Below, piece after piece: positions 4,643-19,887 of a DNA stretch of 64,000 bases (positions within the stretch are counted from its first letter, which is position 1; every line of letters starts with the position of its first letter). The notes under the pieces are model-generated. The model was not told the origin of the DNA, did not search any database, and saw only the letters and a list, made by a program, of their open reading frames with translations. This stretch comes from an uncultured Pelagibacteraceae bacterium. GTDB taxonomy: Bacteria > Pseudomonadota > Alphaproteobacteria > Pelagibacterales > Pelagibacteraceae. The stretch lies in the NCBI GenBank assembly GCA_902632275.1, contig CACPBW010000001.1, positions 76,111-140,110 of the forward strand. Reading direction: 5' to 3'. The position numbers and the translations under genes are program-made.

Positions 4643-5041
4643 TTACTTTTTACATTTTTTACATAATCCAAAAAATTCTAAATTATACTTATTATATCTC
4701 ATACCAGTCTCATCCTGAAAATTAGCTAAATATTTAGAAAGTTTCGGATTGCTTATCTCTGTAACCATTTCACAGTTATCACATATTGAAAATGCTGTTG
4801 CGTTAGATATTGTACAACTATCGTTTTTACATGCTACAAAAGCATTTTTACTCTCAATTTTGTGAATTTTTCCAAGTTTAATTAATCTATCGAGCGCTCT
4901 ATATACTTGCGGAGGTGCTTTTATTCCTTTTTTTTGGACACTAAATAAAATTGAATAAGCTTTTAAAGGTTCTTTAGCTTTTTCAATAATTTCTAAAACT
5001 ATTTGTTGGTTTTTTGAGAGGAAATCTATTTTTTGTGTCAT
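4643..5041 (-). CDS. zur: Fur-family zinc uptake regulator
   Basis: A 132-residue Fur-family repressor. The N-terminal winged helix contains PPQVYRALDRLIKLGKIHKI (residues about 42-61), the conserved recognition-helix block. The C-terminal part has SICDNCEMV and GLCKKCKK, paired cysteines forming the structural zinc site. Placement directly downstream of znuCB and next to two dyads at the znuA/znuC promoter makes Zur far likelier than Fur or PerR. It should repress znuA and znuCB when zinc is replete. The spacer to znuB is 22 bases, consistent with one znuC-znuB-zur transcript. Confidence 0.9.
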   Translation of the reverse strand: MTQKIDFLSKNQQIVLEIIEKAKEPLKAYSILFSVQKKGIKAPPQVYRALDRLIKLGKIHKIESKNAFVACKNDSCTISNATAFSICDNCEMVTEISNPKLSKYLANFQDETGMRYNKYNLEFFGLCKKCKK

Positions 5042-5063
5042 AAGTTATTTTATCAAGTTCACA

Positions 5064-5867
5064 TTATTTTTTCAATTGTTTGAATTTTCTTATATTAAAC
5101 ATAGAAAGAATAAACAAAACTAACGCCGCTGTTATAATAGATGGACCAGATGCCGTATTAAATTCCAGTGATGAATATAAACCTAAAACCACCGCCAAAA
5201 GTCCACCGATAATTGAAATAATAATCATTTGTTTTGGATTATTAGCTAAATTTCTAGCCATTGCCGCAGGTATAATAAGCATTCCTGTAATTAATAATAT
5301 TCCAACCATTTTAATTGATATCGCAATAATTGCTGCCATCAAAATTGTAAATACTGCATTTATTTTTTCAGGTTTCATTCCTTCAGCTTCAGCAAGTTCA
5401 TAATTTACTGTTGATGCGAACAGAGGTTTCCAAATTAACTTAAGGATAAGTAGTATTATTGCGCCACCTACCCATATAACTAATAAATCTTTTTTGTTTA
5501 CCGCAAGAATATCCCCAAACAATAAACCCATTATATCAAAGCGGATATATGATAAAAAGCCTATAACAACCAATCCTATTGCAAGGGATGAGTGGGCCAA
5601 TAAACCTAATAAAGCATCACTTGGGAGCTTAGTTGTTTTTTGTAATCTTAATAAAATTAATGCTACGGCAGATGAAATTAACAATACTGAAAAAGAAATA
5701 TTTATATCAAATGAAAAAGCAAGAGTTACACCTAATAATGAGGAGTGAGCTAATGTTCCAGCAAAAAAGGATAATCTTCTCCAAATTACAAAACATCCTA
5801 GTGGCCCTGTTACTAAAGCTACACCAAGACCAGCAAAAAGTGCTCTTATAAAAAAATCATCAAACAT
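5064..5867 (-). CDS. znuB: Zinc ABC transporter permease
   Basis: A 267-residue ABC-3 family permease with about eight membrane helices. It has GPLGCFVIWRRLSFFAGTLAHSSLLGVTLAF near the N-terminus, conserved in ZnuB/TroC, and a later AEGMKPEKINAVF segment matching the coupling-helix region. It forms the membrane channel for periplasmic zinc delivered by ZnuA. The znuC stop and the znuB start are directly adjacent (TAA-ATG), so translation is coupled. Confidence 0.94.
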   Translation of the reverse strand: MFDDFFIRALFAGLGVALVTGPLGCFVIWRRLSFFAGTLAHSSLLGVTLAFSFDINISFSVLLISSAVALILLRLQKTTKLPSDALLGLLAHSSLAIGLVVIGFLSYIRFDIMGLLFGDILAVNKKDLLVIWVGGAIILLILKLIWKPLFASTVNYELAEAEGMKPEKINAVFTILMAAIIAISIKMVGILLITGMLIIPAAMARNLANNPKQMIIISIIGGLLAVVLGLYSSLEFNTASGPSIITAALVLFILSMFNIRKFKQLKK

Positions 5868-12277: not shown

Positions 12278-12343
12278 ATGAAAAAGCTTTTAGAGATTGT
12301 GGTTCTGGGTTTTTTGTTAAGTGTTACTGCTTACGGAGCGTAG
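12278..12343 (+). pseudogene. 21-residue orphan signal peptide ORF (MKKLLEIVVLG type)
   Basis: A tiny frame encodes only a secretion signal (MKKLLEIVVLGFLLSVTAY) and stops at a TAG. Its first 39 bases closely match, at the nucleotide level, the 5' ends of the exported-protein genes at 18934 and 19172 (33-34 of 39 identical). It is best read as the remnant of an exported-protein gene whose mature part is gone, although a microprotein cannot be excluded. Confidence 0.55.
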
Positions 12344-13070: not shown

Positions 13071-13187
13071 AGAAAAATAAAAAAATTTTACTTATTAATC
13101 TTGTTCAATTATAAATATTAGCATAAATACTCATGAAAATAACTTATGCCCTCGTGGTGAAATTGGTAGACACAAAGGACTTAAAAT
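13071..13187 (+). repeat. Duplicated tRNA-Leu promoter region plus 5' tRNA half (left copy)
   Basis: This direct repeat corresponds to 14487-14603. The tRNA part (13148-13187) is identical over 40 bases, from the acceptor 5' strand through the anticodon (GGACTTAAAAT), then diverges abruptly. The 77 bases upstream are similar with scattered differences. It lacks the 3' half of the tRNA, so it cannot make a tRNA. Confidence 0.9.
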
Positions 13188-13210
13188 AGTTTGAGTTGAG
13201 GAATCCCAGT

Positions 13211-13239
13211 GTCTCTAATAGTCTCTAATGGTCTTAATC
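13211..13239 (+). repeat. Tandem 10-base repeats, arm-site-like
   Basis: Three tandem units GTCTCTAATA, GTCTCTAATG and GTCTTAATC lie 24 bases inside the left tRNA-Leu fragment. A 10-base period means they face the same side of the helix, as integrase arm-type sites do. Confidence 0.6.
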
Positions 13240-13310
13240 CCTCATAATCCTATATTTTTTAAAATCATTGGATTATTTTTATTGGAAATTCTTACTAATT
13301 AATTTTCAGA

Positions 13311-13345
13311 TTCTCGGACCATTCTCGGACATAGAAAGATAAAAT
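13311..13345 (+). repeat. Repeat R1 (paired with R2 at 14461-14494)
   Basis: It contains two copies of TTCTCGGAC (13311-13319 and 13322-13330) followed by ATAGAAAGATAAAAT. A diverged copy, with CGTACCATTCTTGGAC and TAGGGAGATAAAAT, lies at 14461-14494 just before the intact tRNA-Leu upstream region. R1 and R2 enclose all three islet genes. Confidence 0.7.
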
Positions 13346-13359
13346 GATATATTGAGTTT

Positions 13360-13596
13360 ATGAAATTCTTTACAAATATAAATTTAATTAAAATTATAAT
13401 TATATATTGGATGGTTCTTATAATTGTGCAAATTTTTTTTGGAACCTTCACAGAGTTTGGTGCAAGAGAACAAATAACAGATACAAGTTTTAGGTTACCA
13501 AAGGTATATAAGTGGGGCTTGTTATTTAATTTTGTTATTCTAATTCCAGCATTTTTTGTTGTCATATTTAAAATAATTGGTTGGAAAAAAAGATAA
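13360..13596 (+). CDS. Small two-helix membrane protein of islet 1
   Basis: A 78-residue protein with hydrophobic helices at about residues 8-28 and 52-72. Between them is a soluble hairpin containing FGAREQITDTSFRLPKVYKWG. No family is recognised. It begins 15 bases after repeat R1 and is the first gene of the islet. Confidence 0.5.
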   Translation: MKFFTNINLIKIIIIYWMVLIIVQIFFGTFTEFGAREQITDTSFRLPKVYKWGLLFNFVILIPAFFVVIFKIIGWKKR

Positions 13597-13603
13597 TATA
13601 ATC

Positions 13604-13759
13604 ATGCTTATAATTAAATTTGATTCAAACATATCCTTATTCAAACTAGATGAATTTGTATTGCAATTTAAAGAAAAATATAAAAATGAAGAAATGCAAA
13701 TGAATTTTAAATTCAGTAACACAAAACTATTTGTTTATATTTATAGAAGGACACATTAA
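13604..13759 (+). CDS. Hypothetical 51-residue protein of islet 1
   Basis: I use the ATG at 13604 (MLIIKFDSNISLF); a longer frame starting at 13577 would overlap the preceding gene. The protein is small and basic, with alternating hydrophobic residues and no known motif. Its stop overlaps the next start (TAATG), so it is translationally coupled to the 222-residue gene. Confidence 0.45.
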   Translation: MLIIKFDSNISLFKLDEFVLQFKEKYKNEEMQMNFKFSNTKLFVYIYRRTH

Positions 13760-14427
13760 TGAAAAAATACGATTTTAATTTAAATACTCTTAAAAAAAAT
13801 TTTAATTTTAAAAACTTCTGTGAAGAACTAGATTATTTAGTAGGGCTCAGATATGAAAATTGGGATCTTTATAAAGAACAAGTTGGTATTTATAAATATC
13901 TTATTTATTTCTCATTTTACCAAAAAGTCCCATTATTAAATACTGTTATGGAAGCAGATGATACTTCAGAATTTGGCAAAGATTATCATATTATAGATAA
14001 GGAATTTGGTAGTAAAAAAAACTCCAAGATCAGAGAAGAAATTATCACAAAAATAGCTGATGGATCCATATTTGAATTTTTTAATGATAATTTTAAATTG
14101 ATTTATCATTTTCCTATGAATTGCTTTGTTGCCAGTTTAATTTACTCAAAGTTCAATAAAACATATTATCATATTGTTTTCCATCCTTTTGATTTAAAAA
14201 AGAAAAAAGATTTTGATTATAGTCTTCATCATGTAATAGATTTTTATGATAAAAAAATTTCTGAAAAAGTTTTCTTTAACGATATTTTAAAATATTATAG
14301 AGAGGATGTTTTAGGTTTTAATGATGGAAAGTTGATAAAAGGCCGAGATGAACATGAATTTCAAGATCTATATAATAAAAAGGTAAATTATTGGCGAAAA
14401 ATTGCTTATGATAATTTTGATAAATAA
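13759..14427 (+). CDS. Hypothetical 222-residue protein of islet 1
   Basis: A soluble protein rich in Lys, Phe, Tyr and Asp, with no signal peptide or membrane helix. It has conserved-looking aromatic and acidic clusters (ENWDLYKEQVGIYKYLIY, DDTSEFGKDYHIID, YHIVFHPFDL, RDEHEFQDLY). I recognise no family. Coupling to the 51-residue gene could suggest a two-component unit such as a toxin-antitoxin or immunity pair, but nothing in the sequence shows this. Confidence 0.6.
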   Translation: MKKYDFNLNTLKKNFNFKNFCEELDYLVGLRYENWDLYKEQVGIYKYLIYFSFYQKVPLLNTVMEADDTSEFGKDYHIIDKEFGSKKNSKIREEIITKIADGSIFEFFNDNFKLIYHFPMNCFVASLIYSKFNKTYYHIVFHPFDLKKKKDFDYSLHHVIDFYDKKISEKVFFNDILKYYREDVLGFNDGKLIKGRDEHEFQDLYNKKVNYWRKIAYDNFDK

Positions 14428-14460
14428 TAGATTGAATTTGTTTTGATATTTTATAAATAA

Positions 14461-14494
14461 ACTCGTACCATTCTTGGACATAGGGAGATAAAAT
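14461..14494 (+). repeat. Repeat R2 (paired with R1)
   Basis: A diverged copy of R1 containing CGTACCATTCTTGGAC and ATAGGGAGATAAAAT. It runs directly into the tRNA-Leu upstream region (from 14487). It marks the right inner boundary of islet 1. Confidence 0.65.
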
Positions 14495-14563
14495 AAAAAA
14501 AATTTACTTATAGGTCTTGTTCAATTATAAATATTGGCATAAACACTCATGAAAATAACTCAT

Positions 14564-14649
14564 GCCCTCGTGGTGAAATTGGTAGACACAAAGGACTTAA
14601 AATCCTTGCCCTTTTGGGAGTGCCAGTTCGAGTCTGGCCGAGGGCACCA
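14564..14649 (+). tRNA. tRNA-Leu(UAA)
   Basis: 86 bases including encoded CCA. The acceptor stem is GCCCTCG/CGAGGGC, the anticodon loop CTTAAAA reads TAA, a long class II variable arm (GCCCTTTTGGGAGT region) is present, and the T loop is TTCGAGT. It restores the gene cut by islet 1 and lies 4 bases before nadK, so the two are likely co-transcribed. Confidence 0.97.
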
Positions 14650-14653
14650 CTAA

Positions 14654-15418
14654 ATGTCAAAACCACAAATAATTTCTGACACTAATAAAAAATCATTAAG
14701 AATTAAATCTTTTATAAAAAACAAACTTTCGAAAATAAAATTAAAATATGTAAACATAGTCATTGGTGGTGATGGTTTTATGCTCAAAACTTTAAAAAGA
14801 AATAAGCATTCATCTAATTTTTTTTATGGAGTGAATTCTGGTGATTATGGTTTTTTAATGAATAAGTTTTCATCAAAAACAATTATAAAAAATATTAATA
14901 AGGCTAATTTAATTACTATCTCTCCATTAGAAATGAAAGTAACAAATAAGCAAGGATCGAAGAAAAAATATTTAGCAGTAAATGAAGTTTCAATTTTAAG
15001 ACAAAGTAGGCAAGCAGCCTCAGTTTTGATTAAGGTAGGATCAAAATTAATAATGAAGCGTTTAATTTCTGACGGTGTTTTAGTCTCAACACCTGCAGGG
15101 AGCACTGCTTACAATTTATCAGTAAGAGGACCTATTCTAAGCTTAAATTCAAAAAAACTATCTATAGCACCTATAAGCCCGTTTAGACCAAGGAGATGGA
15201 ATGGAAAAATAATTAATGAAAGCCATAAAGTTTTAATAAAAAATTTAAATATAAATAAAAGACCGATTAGTGCAGTTGCTGATAATATTGAGGTTAGAAA
15301 TGCAAAAATCATTGAGGTAAAAATAAATAAAAAAATTAAATTTAAACTTTTATATGACAAAAATAGAGGGCTCCAAAAAAAAATCAAAATAGAACAATTA
15401 AGAAAAGAAACTAATTAG
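14654..15418 (+). CDS. nadK: NAD kinase
   Basis: A 254-residue enzyme that phosphorylates NAD to NADP. The signature GGDGFML (residues 38-44) and the second glycine-rich block DGVLVSTPAGSTAY (about 142-155) are both present, with the NEVSIL motif between them. It starts 4 bases after tRNA-Leu and its stop is 1 base before the next gene. Confidence 0.95.
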   Translation: MSKPQIISDTNKKSLRIKSFIKNKLSKIKLKYVNIVIGGDGFMLKTLKRNKHSSNFFYGVNSGDYGFLMNKFSSKTIIKNINKANLITISPLEMKVTNKQGSKKKYLAVNEVSILRQSRQAASVLIKVGSKLIMKRLISDGVLVSTPAGSTAYNLSVRGPILSLNSKKLSIAPISPFRPRRWNGKIINESHKVLIKNLNINKRPISAVADNIEVRNAKIIEVKINKKIKFKLLYDKNRGLQKKIKIEQLRKETN

Positions 15419-15419
15419 A

Positions 15420-17063
15420 ATGGAGTTTATCTTTTTTATTTTAACATATTTTCTTTTAACATCTGTTGTAATTGGTTTCGGTTCTTTTTTTGCAAAAAAT
15501 ATATCTACTTATAATAGTAATTCAAATATTGGGTATATAGGATTATATGGAATTTTTTCACTTACATTAATTTCATATGTAACAAATTTATTTATAAAAC
15601 ATGATTACTTACATAATTTTATTATATTATTTATAGGTATATTTTTGTTTATCCAATATATTTTTTCTAATAAAAAATCAAAAAGAAATAAGGACATCAA
15701 ATATTTTTTATTTTTTTTAATTATATCAACACTTTCAATTTTCTATTTCAAGAGTCATGATGATTTTCCATATTATCATTTGAGTTTTATACACAATTTA
15801 ACTTTAAATAAGCTTGAATTTGGACTTGGAAACTTTGATTTGGCGTTTAATCATGTTTCATCATTATTTTTTTTTCATTCATTGTTCAAACTTCCTTTTA
15901 CGGAAGACTATTTTTACTTTTTAGGCCCAGTTTTAATAATGGTTTTTTCCAATATAATACTTGTCAAAAGTATTCTCGAAGATAAAAAAAAATTAAATTT
16001 TATTTTTTTTTTAAAATTATTTACTTTTATATTTATAAATACTTTATTTTATAGGCTAGCAGAGCATGGAACAGATAGATCAGCAATAATTTTGATTTTT
16101 GTCAGTATTATAATAATTTTTGAGATACTTCAAAATAGGAAATTATCACATCAAGCATTTGAAAATTTTTTAATATTTCTCACACTTATAATAAGTTTAA
16201 AGTCGTTTTATGCTATTTATGGTTTATTATTTTTTGGAGTTTATTTTAAATATTTTAAATTATCACAAATTTCCAATTTCTATAAAAATTTTAAAATTAT
16301 AAATATTTCAATTATTTTTGGTATGCTGATATTATTTTATAATATAGCTTATACTGGATGCTTGATATATCCATTGACAGTAACTTGCTTTGAAAATTTT
16401 TATTGGAGCATGGACATCGAAAGAATTGAGTCAGCAGCAGTTTGGTATGAGTTATGGTCAAAGGCAGGTGCCACACCCAATTATAGGGTGGATGATCCAA
16501 TAAATTATATTAAAGGTTTAAATTGGTTAGGTGTATGGATAGATAATTATTTTTTTAATAAAGTATCTGACACAATAGGTGGCATAATACTAACAGTATT
16601 TGTCTTTTTAATTATATTTAAACCAAAAAGGATAAAATTTACTTTTAATTCTAAATATAACATAATCCTATTACTCCTATTTTTTTTATTCATTGAGTGG
16701 TTTTTTTATCATCCTTCACTTCGGTATGGGGGGTACCATTTATTAGCTTTACTGTTTTTCATTCCTTCAGCAATTATTTTAGAAAATCAAAATTATTCTT
16801 ACTCAAAAAACTTTAAAAAAATTAATATTATTTTATTAATAGGTATTACAATATTTTCTGTTAGAAATATTGATAGAATCATTGATGAAAATAAAATTTA
16901 TAATTACAACCCTATAAAATCACCTAGATATAATATTAATAAAAAAGATTATTATTTAAAAATAAAAAAAGAAGAAATTCTTCAAAAAACTAATCAATGT
17001 AAAAATGAATTTAAAAAAGATAGTAATTGTAAAATAGTTAATTCTTATAGAATATTTTATTAG
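15420..17063 (+). CDS. Polytopic membrane protein, possibly GT-C-type glycosyltransferase
   Basis: A 547-residue protein with about twelve hydrophobic segments and a short soluble C-terminus containing several Cys. After the third helix comes KSHDDFPYYH (about residue 111), an acidic first-loop motif like that of GT-C transferases, and later GLNWLGVWIDNYF. The architecture resembles the LIC_10190-type or PMT-like membrane proteins that use lipid-linked sugars. Nearby tRNA-Val and a GT4 glycosyltransferase fit an envelope-glycan context. The function is inferred only. Confidence 0.55.
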   Translation: MEFIFFILTYFLLTSVVIGFGSFFAKNISTYNSNSNIGYIGLYGIFSLTLISYVTNLFIKHDYLHNFIILFIGIFLFIQYIFSNKKSKRNKDIKYFLFFLIISTLSIFYFKSHDDFPYYHLSFIHNLTLNKLEFGLGNFDLAFNHVSSLFFFHSLFKLPFTEDYFYFLGPVLIMVFSNIILVKSILEDKKKLNFIFFLKLFTFIFINTLFYRLAEHGTDRSAIILIFVSIIIIFEILQNRKLSHQAFENFLIFLTLIISLKSFYAIYGLLFFGVYFKYFKLSQISNFYKNFKIINISIIFGMLILFYNIAYTGCLIYPLTVTCFENFYWSMDIERIESAAVWYELWSKAGATPNYRVDDPINYIKGLNWLGVWIDNYFFNKVSDTIGGIILTVFVFLIIFKPKRIKFTFNSKYNIILLLLFFLFIEWFFYHPSLRYGGYHLLALLFFIPSAIILENQNYSYSKNFKKINIILLIGITIFSVRNIDRIIDENKIYNYNPIKSPRYNINKKDYYLKIKKEEILQKTNQCKNEFKKDSNCKIVNSYRIFY

Positions 17064-17094
17064 AATAAATAGAATGTCAAAATCAAATTTTATA

Positions 17095-17169
17095 GGGACT
17101 GTAGCTCAATAGTAGAGTACCTCGTTGACATCGAGGGGGTAGTAGGAGCGTAACCTACCAGTCCCACCA
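17095..17169 (+). tRNA. tRNA-Val(GAC) with unusual D and T loops
   Basis: 75 bases including CCA. Acceptor GGGACTG/CAGTCCC, anticodon arm CCTCG-TTGACAT-CGAGG and T stem GTAGG/CCTAC are fully paired. The D loop is AATAGTA (one G instead of GG) and the T loop is AGCGTAA instead of TTCRANY. Perfect stems and encoded CCA argue for a functional tRNA, while the elbow contacts are altered. Confidence 0.9.
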
Positions 17170-17210
17170 TTTTGACAAAATTATTAGTTATAAAATATAT
17201 AAATTTAAAA

Positions 17211-18308
17211 ATGATTAAGAAAAATTTAATAATCTTCATTCCATCTATTGAGCAGGGTGGTGTTGAAAAAAATTTATTTTTAATATCAAACTTTCTTGCA
17301 ACAAAAATAAATAAGGTCAAATTAATTACAGCAAGCAAAGATCACAAACATTTTAAAAAAATAAATATATTAGGACCAAAATCAAAAATTTGGTCAAATA
17401 CTAGTAGATACTCAAAATACTTTATATGTTTAGTTATACTTTTTAAATTATTTTTAAAAAGTAAAAATTATGTAGTATTCGCATTTCAGGCTAACTTATA
17501 CTGTATTATTATATGTAAGCTATTCGGTATAAAAATAATAGTAAGATCAAACACATCTTCTATTGGATGGTCGCAAAACTTTATTAAAAAATTCTTTTAC
17601 AAAAAAATTTTGATGATTGCTGACCAGGTAATTGTAAATAGTAATGATTTTAAAAAAGAATTAAAAAAATCTTTTTCAATCAATGCTAAATGTATTTATA
17701 ACCCTTTAAATAAAAACGAGATAATTAAAAGATCAAAAGAAAAGCTAAAATTTAATTTTCTAAAAACAAGTTCAATTAAAATTATTAATATAGCAAGACT
17801 TACAGACCAAAAAGATCATTTGACTTTACTTAATGCTATGAGGAAAATTAAGGAAAAAATTAAATTTCGTTTGGTGTTAATTGGCACAGGCCCAAATAGA
17901 AATTTAATAGAAAATTATATTTTAAAATATAATTTAAAAAAAAATATTAAAATATTAAATTATCAAAAAAATCCATTTAAATATATTAGAAATTCTGATA
18001 TTTTTATATTAACATCAAAATTCGAGGGTCTTCCAAATGTACTTCTTGAAGCAGCTGTGTTAAAAAAGTTTATTATTTCAACGAATTGCCCCACAGGACC
18101 AAGAGAAATATTATCAAATGGCAAAGGTGGAGAATTAGTTAAAATAGGTAACTTCAAGTCAATTTCAGAAAAAATAATTTCTTACAGTAAAAATAAAAAT
18201 AAATTTATTAAAAAAATTAATTATAATTTTAAATCACTTAAAAAGTTTGATTATTATATGAATTTAAATCAGTATTTACTTGTTGTTGAAAAATATTTAA
18301 AAAGTTAA
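17211..18308 (+). CDS. Glycosyltransferase family 4
   Basis: A 365-residue GT-B enzyme starting at the ATG at 17211 (MIKKNLIIFIPSIEQGGVEKNL); longer starts would run into tRNA-Val. The N-terminal acceptor domain has the SIEQGGVEK loop. The C-terminal nucleotide-sugar domain has RLTDQKDH, LIGTGPNRN, and the EX7E motif in FEGLPNVLLEAAVL, followed by TNCPTGPREIL. It is probably used in surface glycan or glycolipid assembly; donor and acceptor are unknown. Confidence 0.9.
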   Translation: MIKKNLIIFIPSIEQGGVEKNLFLISNFLATKINKVKLITASKDHKHFKKINILGPKSKIWSNTSRYSKYFICLVILFKLFLKSKNYVVFAFQANLYCIIICKLFGIKIIVRSNTSSIGWSQNFIKKFFYKKILMIADQVIVNSNDFKKELKKSFSINAKCIYNPLNKNEIIKRSKEKLKFNFLKTSSIKIINIARLTDQKDHLTLLNAMRKIKEKIKFRLVLIGTGPNRNLIENYILKYNLKKNIKILNYQKNPFKYIRNSDIFILTSKFEGLPNVLLEAAVLKKFIISTNCPTGPREILSNGKGGELVKIGNFKSISEKIISYSKNKNKFIKKINYNFKSLKKFDYYMNLNQYLLVVEKYLKS

Positions 18309-18314
18309 ATTTAT

Positions 18315-18363
18315 TGGTGCCCCCGCACGGACTCGAACCGCGGACCTATTGATTACAAATCAA
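18315..18363 (-). repeat. tRNA-Thr 3' fragment (far end of islet 2)
   Basis: 49 bases identical to 19812-19860: the anticodon arm, T arm, acceptor 3' strand and CCA of tRNA-Thr on the minus strand. Identity stops exactly where the 5' side of the anticodon stem would continue. It has no D arm or 5' acceptor strand, so it is an attachment-site copy, not a gene. Confidence 0.92.
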
Positions 18364-18416
18364 GAATCTAAACTCAAAAAGACAAACACTATCAACGTTA
18401 ATTGAAAGTTATTACA

Positions 18417-18443
18417 AATCTGTACACACTATAGTCACAATGA
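18417..18443 (+). repeat. Repeat S1 (paired with S2)
   Basis: It contains CACACTATAGTCACA and matches 19724-19750 at 24 of 27 bases in direct orientation. It lies 54 bases inside the left tRNA-Thr fragment and 13 bases before the first cargo gene. Confidence 0.75.
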
Positions 18444-18455
18444 TAAAGTTTTCTT

Positions 18456-18932
18456 ATGAAAGATTTTGATATCAAGTCTTTAACTGACCAAGAAGTTATT
18501 TCTTTGTATCCAAAAACTTTGCAAGAATTAAAAAATAGAAAAATAATAAGAACAAATAATTTAGTTGGAGATTTAGGAGAGTATTGGTGTATTAAAAAAT
18601 ATAATGAGATTGCGGGACTACCTAAACTTCAAGATGCTCCGGAGAGCACAAAAAATATTGATGCAATCAGCGTTAAAGGCGAAAGATATGCAATTAAATC
18701 TACATCAGGATCAGGGACAAGTACTTTTGCAAGTATTCCTATAAATGATGACACAAAACCACTTTTTGAATATGTAGTTTTAGTTCTTTTTGATAAAGCA
18801 TATGTTTTAAAAGAAATTTATGAATTAAATTGGGAACAATTTTTGAAATTTAGAAGAATGAAGCCACCAGAAAATAAGTGGAATATTAGAATAACAAAAA
18901 AATTAAAAGAAGAAGCCAAAAGAATATTTTAA
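18456..18932 (+). CDS. Putative PD-(D/E)XK-like nuclease-fold protein
   Basis: A 158-residue protein. An early Glu in LVGDLGEYWCIKKY (about residue 42), then NIDAIS (Asp, about residue 70) and RYAIKSTS (Lys, about residue 80), give the E...D...xxK spacing of restriction-endonuclease-like folds, similar to DUF6998-type proteins. The usual second acidic residue before the Lys is replaced by Ile (AIK), so activity is uncertain. As islet cargo it may be a defence or DNA-processing gene, which is inference. Confidence 0.55.
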   Translation: MKDFDIKSLTDQEVISLYPKTLQELKNRKIIRTNNLVGDLGEYWCIKKYNEIAGLPKLQDAPESTKNIDAISVKGERYAIKSTSGSGTSTFASIPINDDTKPLFEYVVLVLFDKAYVLKEIYELNWEQFLKFRRMKPPENKWNIRITKKLKEEAKRIF

Positions 18933-18933
18933 A

Positions 18934-19170
18934 ATGAAAAAACTTTTAGCGATCGTGGTTCTGGGCTTGTTCTTAACTAGCAAAGCTTTGGCTTGTGGTG
19001 GAGACTTTTATACTGGCTTATTTGATTTTTCAAAAGAACATAAGATATGTGGAAAGTATGCAAGATCTTTGGATGGAGATAGCTTTCAAAAAAATGATGC
19101 ATACTGTGACTGCAGAGAAAGGTTAGATAATAAAAAAAAATACGGTATTGAAAAAATTTTTGATGATTAA
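18934..19170 (+). CDS. Small exported Cys-containing protein
   Basis: A 78-residue protein with a clear signal peptide (MKKLLAIVVLGLFLTSKALA) and a short mature part with four Cys (ACGGDF, KICGKY, AYCDCRE). No family is recognised. It starts 1 base after the nuclease-like gene. Its first 39 bases match those of the next gene at 35 of 39 positions, although the mature proteins are unrelated. Confidence 0.65.
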   Translation: MKKLLAIVVLGLFLTSKALACGGDFYTGLFDFSKEHKICGKYARSLDGDSFQKNDAYCDCRERLDNKKKYGIEKIFDD

Positions 19171-19171
19171 T

Positions 19172-19693
19172 ATGAAAAAACTTTTAGGGATCGTGGTTCT
19201 AGGTTTGTTGATAAATTCCTGTTCAGATTTAAAAAATAAATCAGCTTTAGAAAATTGTGCAACTAAAACTTATTTAGAAGATGGTGAGGGAATGAGAGCT
19301 AATAAATATTATTATACAGAAAATGACTGGGTGATACTTAGTGACAAAAAATTTTTAGAAAAAACAAAAAAAATGGTACAAGAACTACCCAATATAATCC
19401 CTGAATCAAAATATTATAAAAAAATAGAAGGTATCCACTCAAAATCTTTTGATGAAAAAGTTAAAATTCTACATCAAAATTATGTACAAATTAAAAATTA
19501 TTCAAAGAACCCTTTTTTTATAATCAATACGATGCCATATATGTTAGAAAGAAGTGATCTTTTAAAAAAAAAAATTCCAAAATTATCTTTAAAAAAGAAG
19601 AGAAACCTGATTGGATTTATAGAGTTTTATCAAAACTGTGAAAGAGCAAGTATAAGAAATCCTGAAACATTTAAATTAAAATACGTAGATTAA
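19172..19693 (+). CDS. Lipoprotein of unknown function
   Basis: I start at the ATG at 19172 (MKKLLGIVVLG), giving 173 residues; a longer frame from 19148 would overlap the preceding gene. The signal ends in a lipobox (LLINSC), so the protein is probably lipid-anchored. The mature part is Lys/Asn-rich with two more Cys (ENCATKTY, YQNCERA). No family is recognised. It starts 1 base after the preceding stop. Confidence 0.65.
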   Translation: MKKLLGIVVLGLLINSCSDLKNKSALENCATKTYLEDGEGMRANKYYYTENDWVILSDKKFLEKTKKMVQELPNIIPESKYYKKIEGIHSKSFDEKVKILHQNYVQIKNYSKNPFFIINTMPYMLERSDLLKKKIPKLSLKKKRNLIGFIEFYQNCERASIRNPETFKLKYVD

Positions 19694-19723
19694 AAAGACT
19701 AAAAGAATACTTGATTAATACAC

Positions 19724-19750
19724 AATCTGTTCACACTATAGTCACACTCA
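19724..19750 (+). repeat. Repeat S2 (paired with S1)
   Basis: A direct copy of S1 containing CACACTATAGTCACA, 61 bases from the intact tRNA-Thr 3' end. Together S1 and S2 enclose all cargo of islet 2. Confidence 0.75.
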
Positions 19751-19811
19751 CTAGAGAAATTTGAATGATATTAAAATTATAAAAAAAATTAACGTTGATT
19801 TTATTGATTGA

Positions 19812-19887
19812 TGGTGCCCCCGCACGGACTCGAACCGCGGACCTATTGATTACAAATCAATTGCTCTACCAGCTGAGCTACAAGGGC
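19812..19887 (-). tRNA. tRNA-Thr(UGU)
   Basis: 76 bases including CCA on the minus strand. Acceptor GCCCTTG pairs with CGGGGGC (two G-U pairs), the D loop has AGCTGGTA, the anticodon loop TTTGTAA reads TGT, and the T loop is TTCGAGT. It is the intact attachment copy for islet 2. Confidence 0.96.

Follow-up and report, generated by a model that had tools for sequence, protein, structure and literature searches.

The genome of an uncultured Pelagibacteraceae (SAR11) bacterium carries two short islets of accessory genes beside tRNA genes within the stretch analysed here (the window: 64,000 nucleotides of contig CACPBW010000001.1, positions 76,111 to 140,110, assembly GCA_902632275.1). The first is about 1.4 kb long and lies on the 5' side of tRNA-Leu(taa); the part of the locus that is duplicated at its ends is the promoter and 5' half, not the usual 3' end. 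It comprises the following features (att, attachment site; ORF, open reading frame).

13074-13147, + strand: displaced outer copy of the putative tRNA-Leu promoter region, in direct repeat (D1) with 14490-14603
13148-13187, + strand: left att of the islet, a copy of the tRNA-Leu 5' half (nt 1-40), 100% identical over 40 nt
13313-13345, no strand: putative left arm, CTCGGACCATTCTCGGACATAG plus AAAGATAAAAT, placed +126 from the core like its counterparts in other Leu islets
13360-13596, + strand: cargo ORF of 78 aa, probable membrane protein, all Pfam matches sub-threshold
13604-13759, + strand: doubtful, possible cargo ORF of 51 aa with a weak PADLOC REase_II match (E 0.0017)
13759-14427, + strand: cargo ORF of 222 aa, no function assigned, with a homologue in one of 200 other genus genomes (G012, 42%)
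14462-14494, no strand: putative right arm, CTCGTACCATTCTTGGACATAG plus GGAGATAAAAT, inner repeat partner of 13313
14490-14563, + strand: putative promoter module of mobile type before the intact tRNA-Leu, common to 68 of 78 genus tRNA-Leu loci
14564-14649, + strand: intact tRNA-Leu(taa) (ARAGORN), integration target, its 5' half being the inner copy

The second islet, of about 1.5 kb, lies on the 3' side of tRNA-Thr(tgt), and its outer end is a classical copy of the tRNA 3' half.

18315-18363, - strand: outer att of the islet, a copy of the tRNA-Thr 3' half (nt 28-76), 100% identical over 49 nt
18417-18439, no strand: putative left arm, AATCTGTACACACTATAGTCACA, the same repeat lying beside tRNA-Thr of genomes G017 and G037
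18456-18932, + strand: cargo, predicted methyl-directed type II restriction enzyme of 158 aa, Eco15I-like (PADLOC mREase_II 5.5e-51; PDB Eco15I 7.6e-8)
18934-19170, + strand: cargo ORF, small protein of 78 aa with a signal peptide
19172-19693, + strand: cargo ORF, putative lipoprotein of 173 aa, with the same leader (repeat D4) as its 78-aa neighbour
19724-19746, no strand: putative right arm, AATCTGTTCACACTATAGTCACA, inner repeat partner of 18417
19812-19887, - strand: intact tRNA-Thr(tgt) (ARAGORN), integration target

At the Leu port, tRNA-Leu(UAA), positions 13074-13187 repeat 14490-14603 over 114 nt at 94% identity, comprising 74 nt upstream of the gene and tRNA nt 1-40; at the Thr port, tRNA-Thr(UGU), positions 18315-18363 repeat 19812-19860 (49 nt, 100%, tRNA-Thr nt 28-76). 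A scan of 632 of the 780 kb of this 75%-complete genome, in which 21 tRNAs and the transfer-messenger RNA (tmRNA) were found, gave clear partial copies for these two tRNAs only (BLAST E 4e-17 for Leu and 2e-22 for Thr), together with two weak matches of 17-20 nt to the tmRNA. Searches of both islets with Pfam, PHROGs and PADLOC returned no integrase or transposase and no ORF matching a mobility family, nor the combination of own integrase with replication and regulation genes that marks satellites resembling phage-inducible chromosomal islands (PICIs) or their minimalist relatives (PICMIs). The initial annotation had described two islets of these sizes, with tRNA att copies, inner repeats and no mobility gene, and this description holds. 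The sole PF00589 match in the genome is a 317-aa protein on a different contig, which resembles the single Xer-type recombinase of about 318 aa found in most genus members.

The islets belong to a family that is widespread in the genus. Up to 201 same-genus species genomes were surveyed (the window genome and 200 others), with counts taken from fetched tRNA loci and the interval placed by the core genes that flank it, a NAD-kinase-like gene after tRNA-Leu and an rlmB-like gene beside tRNA-Thr, which are conserved around it. The interval was located in 109 genomes, 26 of which are bare (125-137 bp, little more than the tRNA), and it reaches up to 18 kb in the rest. Copies of the tRNA-Leu 5' half are present in 30 genomes and copies of the tRNA-Thr 3' half in 44, the window included, so that 29 and 43 other species genomes provide further examples. 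Most of the Leu copies end at nt 39-40 and 57 of the 58 Thr copies start at nt 22-31, placing the breakpoints in or beside the anticodon loop in nearly all islets. Median islet size is 2.0 kb for Leu and 1.6 kb for Thr, and no recombinase gene was found in any short islet examined. Several genomes have tandem 3'-half copies at tRNA-Thr, in arrays of up to five (G106). As in additive genomic islands, repeated tRNA ends thus bound variable cargo at one tRNA. The inner repeat of the window Thr islet recurs in two of the 200 other genomes, G017 and G037, adjoining tRNA-Thr in both, with a 3'-half copy, different cargo and ends that are about 84-90% identical to those of the window.

Other arrangements occur at the same two tRNAs. 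On the rlmB side of tRNA-Thr, copies of the 5' half of that tRNA are present in five genomes (loci L067, L068, L073, L079 and L047 of G019, G076, G073, G155 and G142, respectively); these are insertions on the opposite flank of the gene. At tRNA-Leu, G085 (L019), G149 (L064) and, on its left flank, G120 (L178) have a different type of right end (CACCGATAATTCTTGAACA...), which does not contain the GAGATAAA box described below and probably represents another element family at this port.

A bare tRNA-Leu site, in G086, can be compared with an occupied one, in G118. The two have 400 nt of upstream flank in common at 95% identity, and the displaced promoter region of G118 is identical to the bare-site promoter of G086 at 72 of 74 positions, whereas the intact tRNA-Leu of G118 carries the mobile-type promoter instead. 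This module, whose promoter function is suggested by its position and sequence, is present at 68 of the 78 genus tRNA-Leu loci, 48 with the GAGATAAA box. Left and right promoter copies are no closer within a genome (likeness 0.82) than between genomes (0.81).

Between their att copies, most Leu islets contain two tandem repeats of about 11 bp followed by GAGATAAAAT; the left arm lies at about +126 relative to the core and the right arm at about -104 relative to the tRNA. Comparable arms lie at about +55 and -80 in short Thr islets, and at about +75 and -121 in several long ones (up to 7.7 kb). The repeat unit differs between islets (ACCAGTACC, ACTAGACGT, CTCGTACAT, and CTCGGACAT in the window), yet left and right arms agree within an islet: the summed match is 497 for Leu islets against 272.5 +/- 18.1 when permuted, and 537 for Thr islets against 387.7 +/- 14.8, values never attained in 5000 permutations for either port (P<=2e-4). 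Chance was accordingly rejected as the origin of the inner repeats. Arm-type sites of lambda-like tyrosine integrases have such a layout, and by analogy the inner repeats are putative arm-type integrase binding sites.

The cargo is diverse and largely oriented one way. The 255 islet ORFs of at least 60 aa fall into 167 clusters, including 136 singletons, and about 87-90% of the predicted coding length runs in one direction. The displaced tRNA promoter was considered as the cause of this orientation at the Leu port and is not supported by it alone, the Thr cargo being equally one-sided without such a promoter. Recognisable families include Mrr, MrcB, SRA and other restriction-type proteins, T5orf172/MUG113 domains, trypsin, polysaccharide lyase, pilin-like N_methyl proteins, autotransporters and transport proteins, and the islet of G017 encodes a distant methyl-directed restriction enzyme beside a DUF6994 protein. 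Six clusters mix Leu and Thr cargo. A stretch of 649 bp is 95% identical between a Leu islet of G129 and a Thr islet of G106, two genomes with an RlmB protein identity of 78%. Elsewhere, islets have DNA that is 91-98% identical between species with RlmB identities of 68-94%. Some islets have the left part in common and differ in the right part. The initial annotation had proposed a wider SAR11 family with cargo exchange, to be abandoned if neither further examples nor exchange came to light. The proposal withstands this check: further examples are documented, together with cargo that varies within a port, islets in tandem, unoccupied sites and the DNA common to the G129 and G106 islets.

Several observations concern individual genes. 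A homologue of the window restriction enzyme, 72% identical, lies inside the his operon of G175 (L238 1489-1962), between hisA and hisH, at a locus with no tRNA port. Nearly identical DNA of about 45 nt occurs at 18929-18976 and 19167-19214 of the window, with a similar leader at 12278-12330; it encodes the signal-peptide start (MKKLLAIVVLGL...) of adjoining, otherwise unlike genes, and similar leaders occur in other islet cargo. Judged by sequence, this leader DNA looks like a mobile or strongly conserved module. The stretch preceding the Thr islet is variable too: within 17095-18308, the glycosyltransferase gene that follows tRNA-Val(gac) is absent from G017, a close relative in which almost nothing separates tRNA-Val from the Thr copy.

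Integrase-bearing relatives occupy the same tRNA-Leu, in line with the link to satellites drawn in the initial annotation. A scan of IMG/VR with the tRNA-Leu 5' half retrieved 23 contigs, most of them bearing the half alone. One of these, L121 (7.8 kb), has att at both ends and probably represents an entire circular element of some 7.7 kb. The layout of arm and GAGATAAA box is found in L121, L136, L142 and partly L140, with the left arm falling within the first codons of a 545-aa ORF, and matched arms lie at about +127/-102 in L137 and L139. The 545-aa ORF matches tyrosine recombinases (Pfam 4.9e-5, below the curated cut-off; PHROG_1 4.3e-20) with catalytic residues largely conserved. Its AlphaFold model (pLDDT 77, pTM 0.45) is structurally similar to lambda integrase and also, at a weak E-value, to the arm-binding domains of P4-like integrases. 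As predicted from sequence and model, the large ORF of L121-type elements is a divergent lambda-Int-like recombinase. L121 further encodes an archaeo-eukaryotic primase (AEP/DUF5906) and a RusA-like resolvase, a satellite-like gene set.

Among the genus genomes the recombinase is present in four of 201, and in two of these the element sits at tRNA-Leu (7.8 kb in G168 and 8.8 kb in G120), bounded by a 5'-half copy and the intact tRNA and carrying both recombinase and primase. Recombinase length is 515-551 aa across the elements. A pattern scan of 84,980 species genomes detected it in Pelagibacteraceae single-cell genomes only, including AG-909-L14 with the same att, and a search of isolated phages gave no match. 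The first 47 nt or so inside the core align between recombinase elements and islets. Arm codes agree as well: the right arm of the G120 element (24 nt) reaches a score of 23 with the G110 islet and of 22 with the G022 islet, the NAD kinases of these three genomes being only 69-76% identical, and the right arm of AG-909-L14 scores 18 against the islet of G064. At the Thr port, the viral contig L170 carries tRNA-Thr nt 21-76 near an integrase gene, a small terminase and an AAA_25 ATPase, and its arms TCTGTCCGCACTATGTCCGCA / CCGCAATCTGTCCGCAA resemble AATCTGTACACACTATAGTCACA of the window. Most Thr 3'-half matches in viral contigs were set aside as ordinary phage tRNA-Thr genes, with the exception of L170 and L149. 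The G120 arm pattern had no match among viral contigs. The first patterns for the exact window arm motifs likewise found nothing there, and two contigs matched by a looser 17-mer were discarded as chance, having neither tRNA-Leu pieces nor a second repeat.

Phage-related sequences at tRNA-Leu were also encountered. G072 (L050 6140-7358) and L116 have a phage-type integrase element in tRNA-Leu with a short core, CTTAAAA, and GTGCA arms; in G072 only the tRNA-Leu 3' half is left beside the NAD kinase. The related phage KT997847 carries its own tRNA-Leu, which recalls tRNA-dependent lysogeny (PMC10865867). Contig L129, with T4-like phage genes (PhoH), terminates at 4930-5129 in a Leu-islet right end (arm, GAGATAAAATA, promoter, tRNA-Leu 5' half) followed by the start of another ORF; it may be an islet inserted in a virulent phage, a hint of phage carriage, or, as a single metagenomic contig, a chimera.

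We consider the islets probably to be non-autonomous integrative cassettes, mobilised in trans by the integrases of satellite-like elements. This reading is favoured because tRNA-half copies recur in 30 (Leu) and 44 (Thr) genomes with breakpoints in or beside the anticodon loop, arms are matched at fixed distances, and bare and occupied sites correspond in G086 and G118; because elements with recombinase and primase occupy the same tRNA-Leu with similar left ends and with arms nearly identical to those of G110, G022 and G064; and because viral contigs have the same att layout, L170 has a Thr-type att, and DNA is common to ports and species. A cassette would consist of an att core in the tRNA anticodon loop, two arm sites, the tRNA half that repairs the target and one to four accessory genes, the Leu cassette restoring the 5' half and supplying a promoter and the Thr cassette restoring the 3' half. 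A tyrosine integrase from a satellite-like element with the same core and arm code would bind both arms, acting on the islet in trans, and excise it as a circle by recombining the anticodon-loop core. The circle could then enter either tRNA gene, Leu or Thr, within its cell of origin or following passage between cells by virions, transformation or vesicles, and successive insertions would pile up beside the tRNA.

A number of observations weigh against trans-mobilisation. No excised circle of an islet was seen, and the recombinase elements are rare in the genus, so that an integrase-bearing element may usually be absent where a cassette is present. None was integrated at tRNA-Thr in the sampled genomes, and the window islets' own arm codes occur in no integrase-bearing element found. 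Clear matching arms are missing from many Thr islets and from about nine of the 30 Leu islets, the latter perhaps being other families or decayed.

The islets could instead be defunct remnants of satellites or prophages that once encoded an integrase, lost it by deletion and, having become fixed, are now degenerating. The uniform lack of an integrase in short islets, the islets without recognisable arms and the ends common to islets and integrase-bearing elements would all fit such decay. We regard it as unlikely, given that arms and core are still matched in many islets, that the cargo consists of complete, mostly one-directional accessory genes and not of satellite remnants, and that several islets are 92-98% identical in DNA across species with far more diverged core proteins, as recent movement predicts.

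Homologous recombination offers another route, in which DNA taken up by transformation or transduction would replace the interval through homology in the repeated tRNA halves and the flanking core genes, the repeats being ancient scars. The conserved flanking genes would permit it and the islets with like left and different right parts suggest exchange within islets, but it predicts neither anticodon-loop breakpoints in nearly all islets nor fixed arm distances with islet-specific matching, and we consider it improbable as the means by which islets spread.

The cassette idea would be unchanged if help came not from a satellite recombinase but from temperate pelagiphage-like viruses whose integrase uses tRNA-Leu. 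In ten IMG/VR contigs an integrase gene lies about 30-90 nt away from the tRNA-Leu 5' half, and a 349-aa phage-type integrase adjoins the tRNA-Leu 3' half in G072. Those phage att sites, however, had no matched islet-type arms in the same test, the G072 type differs in arms and core, and it is the 515-551 aa recombinase elements that the islets match in arm layout and left-end sequence, leaving a phage helper with little probability. A mover encoded in the window genome was rejected, only the Xer-type protein having been found in this 75%-complete genome, as was an assembly or single-cell chimera, since the same architecture occurs in dozens of species genomes.

Beyond trans-mobilisation itself, the cassettes may form an integron-like system without an integrase of its own, in which private arm codes would be read by matching satellite integrases, cassettes would stack up and pass from one of the two tRNA ports to the other and from species to species, and each Leu insertion would replace the tRNA-Leu(UAA) promoter, most lineages now depending on a mobile one. 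To this extension we give somewhat less than even credence.

Tycheposons, reportedly described by Hackl et al. in 2023, are among the closest known systems. They are elements of marine bacteria, 4-200 kb in size and equipped with a recombinase, according to PMC10872708, and are also cited in PMC11389934. Common ground lies in streamlined marine hosts, linkage to tRNA genes, a divergent tyrosine recombinase in full elements, cargo that remodels genomic islands and the satellite nature of some members. The window islets and other short islets have the tRNA gene at the border but encode no site-specific tyrosine recombinase and measure 0.4-4 kb. PICMIs of Vibrionaceae (PMC10803314) resemble the 7.7-kb L121-type elements in their integrase, small regulator-like ORFs, DUF5906-type primase and size of about 6-8 kb, but have another host, and L121 gave no match to AlpA or Fis; the islets lack all of these genes. 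The satellite gene set of integrase with replication and regulation genes is present in part in L121 and L170, and the presence of relatives among IMG/VR contigs bears only indirectly on packaging in helper virions.

The additive flexible islands at tRNA-Lys of Methylopumilus (PMC10872708) likewise have repeated tRNA ends at one tRNA, range from 330 bp to 42 kb and hold mostly unknown genes, but their reported repeat covers only the last 20 nt of the tRNA, and no arms, helper or ends with 5' half and promoter are described there. Clusters of attC sites lacking integron-integrases (CALINs) and miniature inverted-repeat transposable elements (MITEs) are comparable as cargo or ends that lack a recombinase and are presumed to move in trans, and in forming arrays of mostly one orientation (PMC11389934). 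The islets differ in targeting the tRNA anticodon loop through arm-type sites and not attC or transposon inverted repeats, their junctions being tRNA halves. The MITE-like combination of ends common with an autonomous element and an absent recombinase applies to the Leu family as a whole, the window arm code being without a known partner. A survey of SAR11 hypervariable regions noted tRNA genes on the borders of hypervariable region 4 (HVR4) and detected no attC sites (PMC2217521).

The initial annotation had put this forward as a candidate for an undescribed system, which stands in part. The general class of hitch-hiking satellites and tycheposon-like elements is already published, as are tRNA-integrating satellites, additive islands and the idea of integrase-dependent hitchers (PMC10872708, PMC11389934, PMC10803314). 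A literature search, with the original tycheposon and VEIME papers lying outside it, revealed no integrase-less SAR11 cassettes below 2 kb, no att ends made of promoter plus 5' half and no arm-code matching with satellites, and a search for integration on the 5' side of tRNAs gave nothing useful. The carried tRNA promoter and the matched arm codes are the new parts.

SAR11 are the most abundant bacteria of the ocean and maintain a large pool of accessory genes, with streamlined genomes and very few recognised mobile elements. The cassettes offer a concrete, testable vehicle for such genes, short and integrase-less, with arm codes that predict pairs of helper and cassette, and have the look of hitch-hikers through which species exchange genes for defence and the cell surface. 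The restriction enzymes and other defence candidates in the cargo are relevant to the dynamics between phages and SAR11, and, as the islets suggest, even the promoter of tRNA-Leu would be horizontally exchanged.

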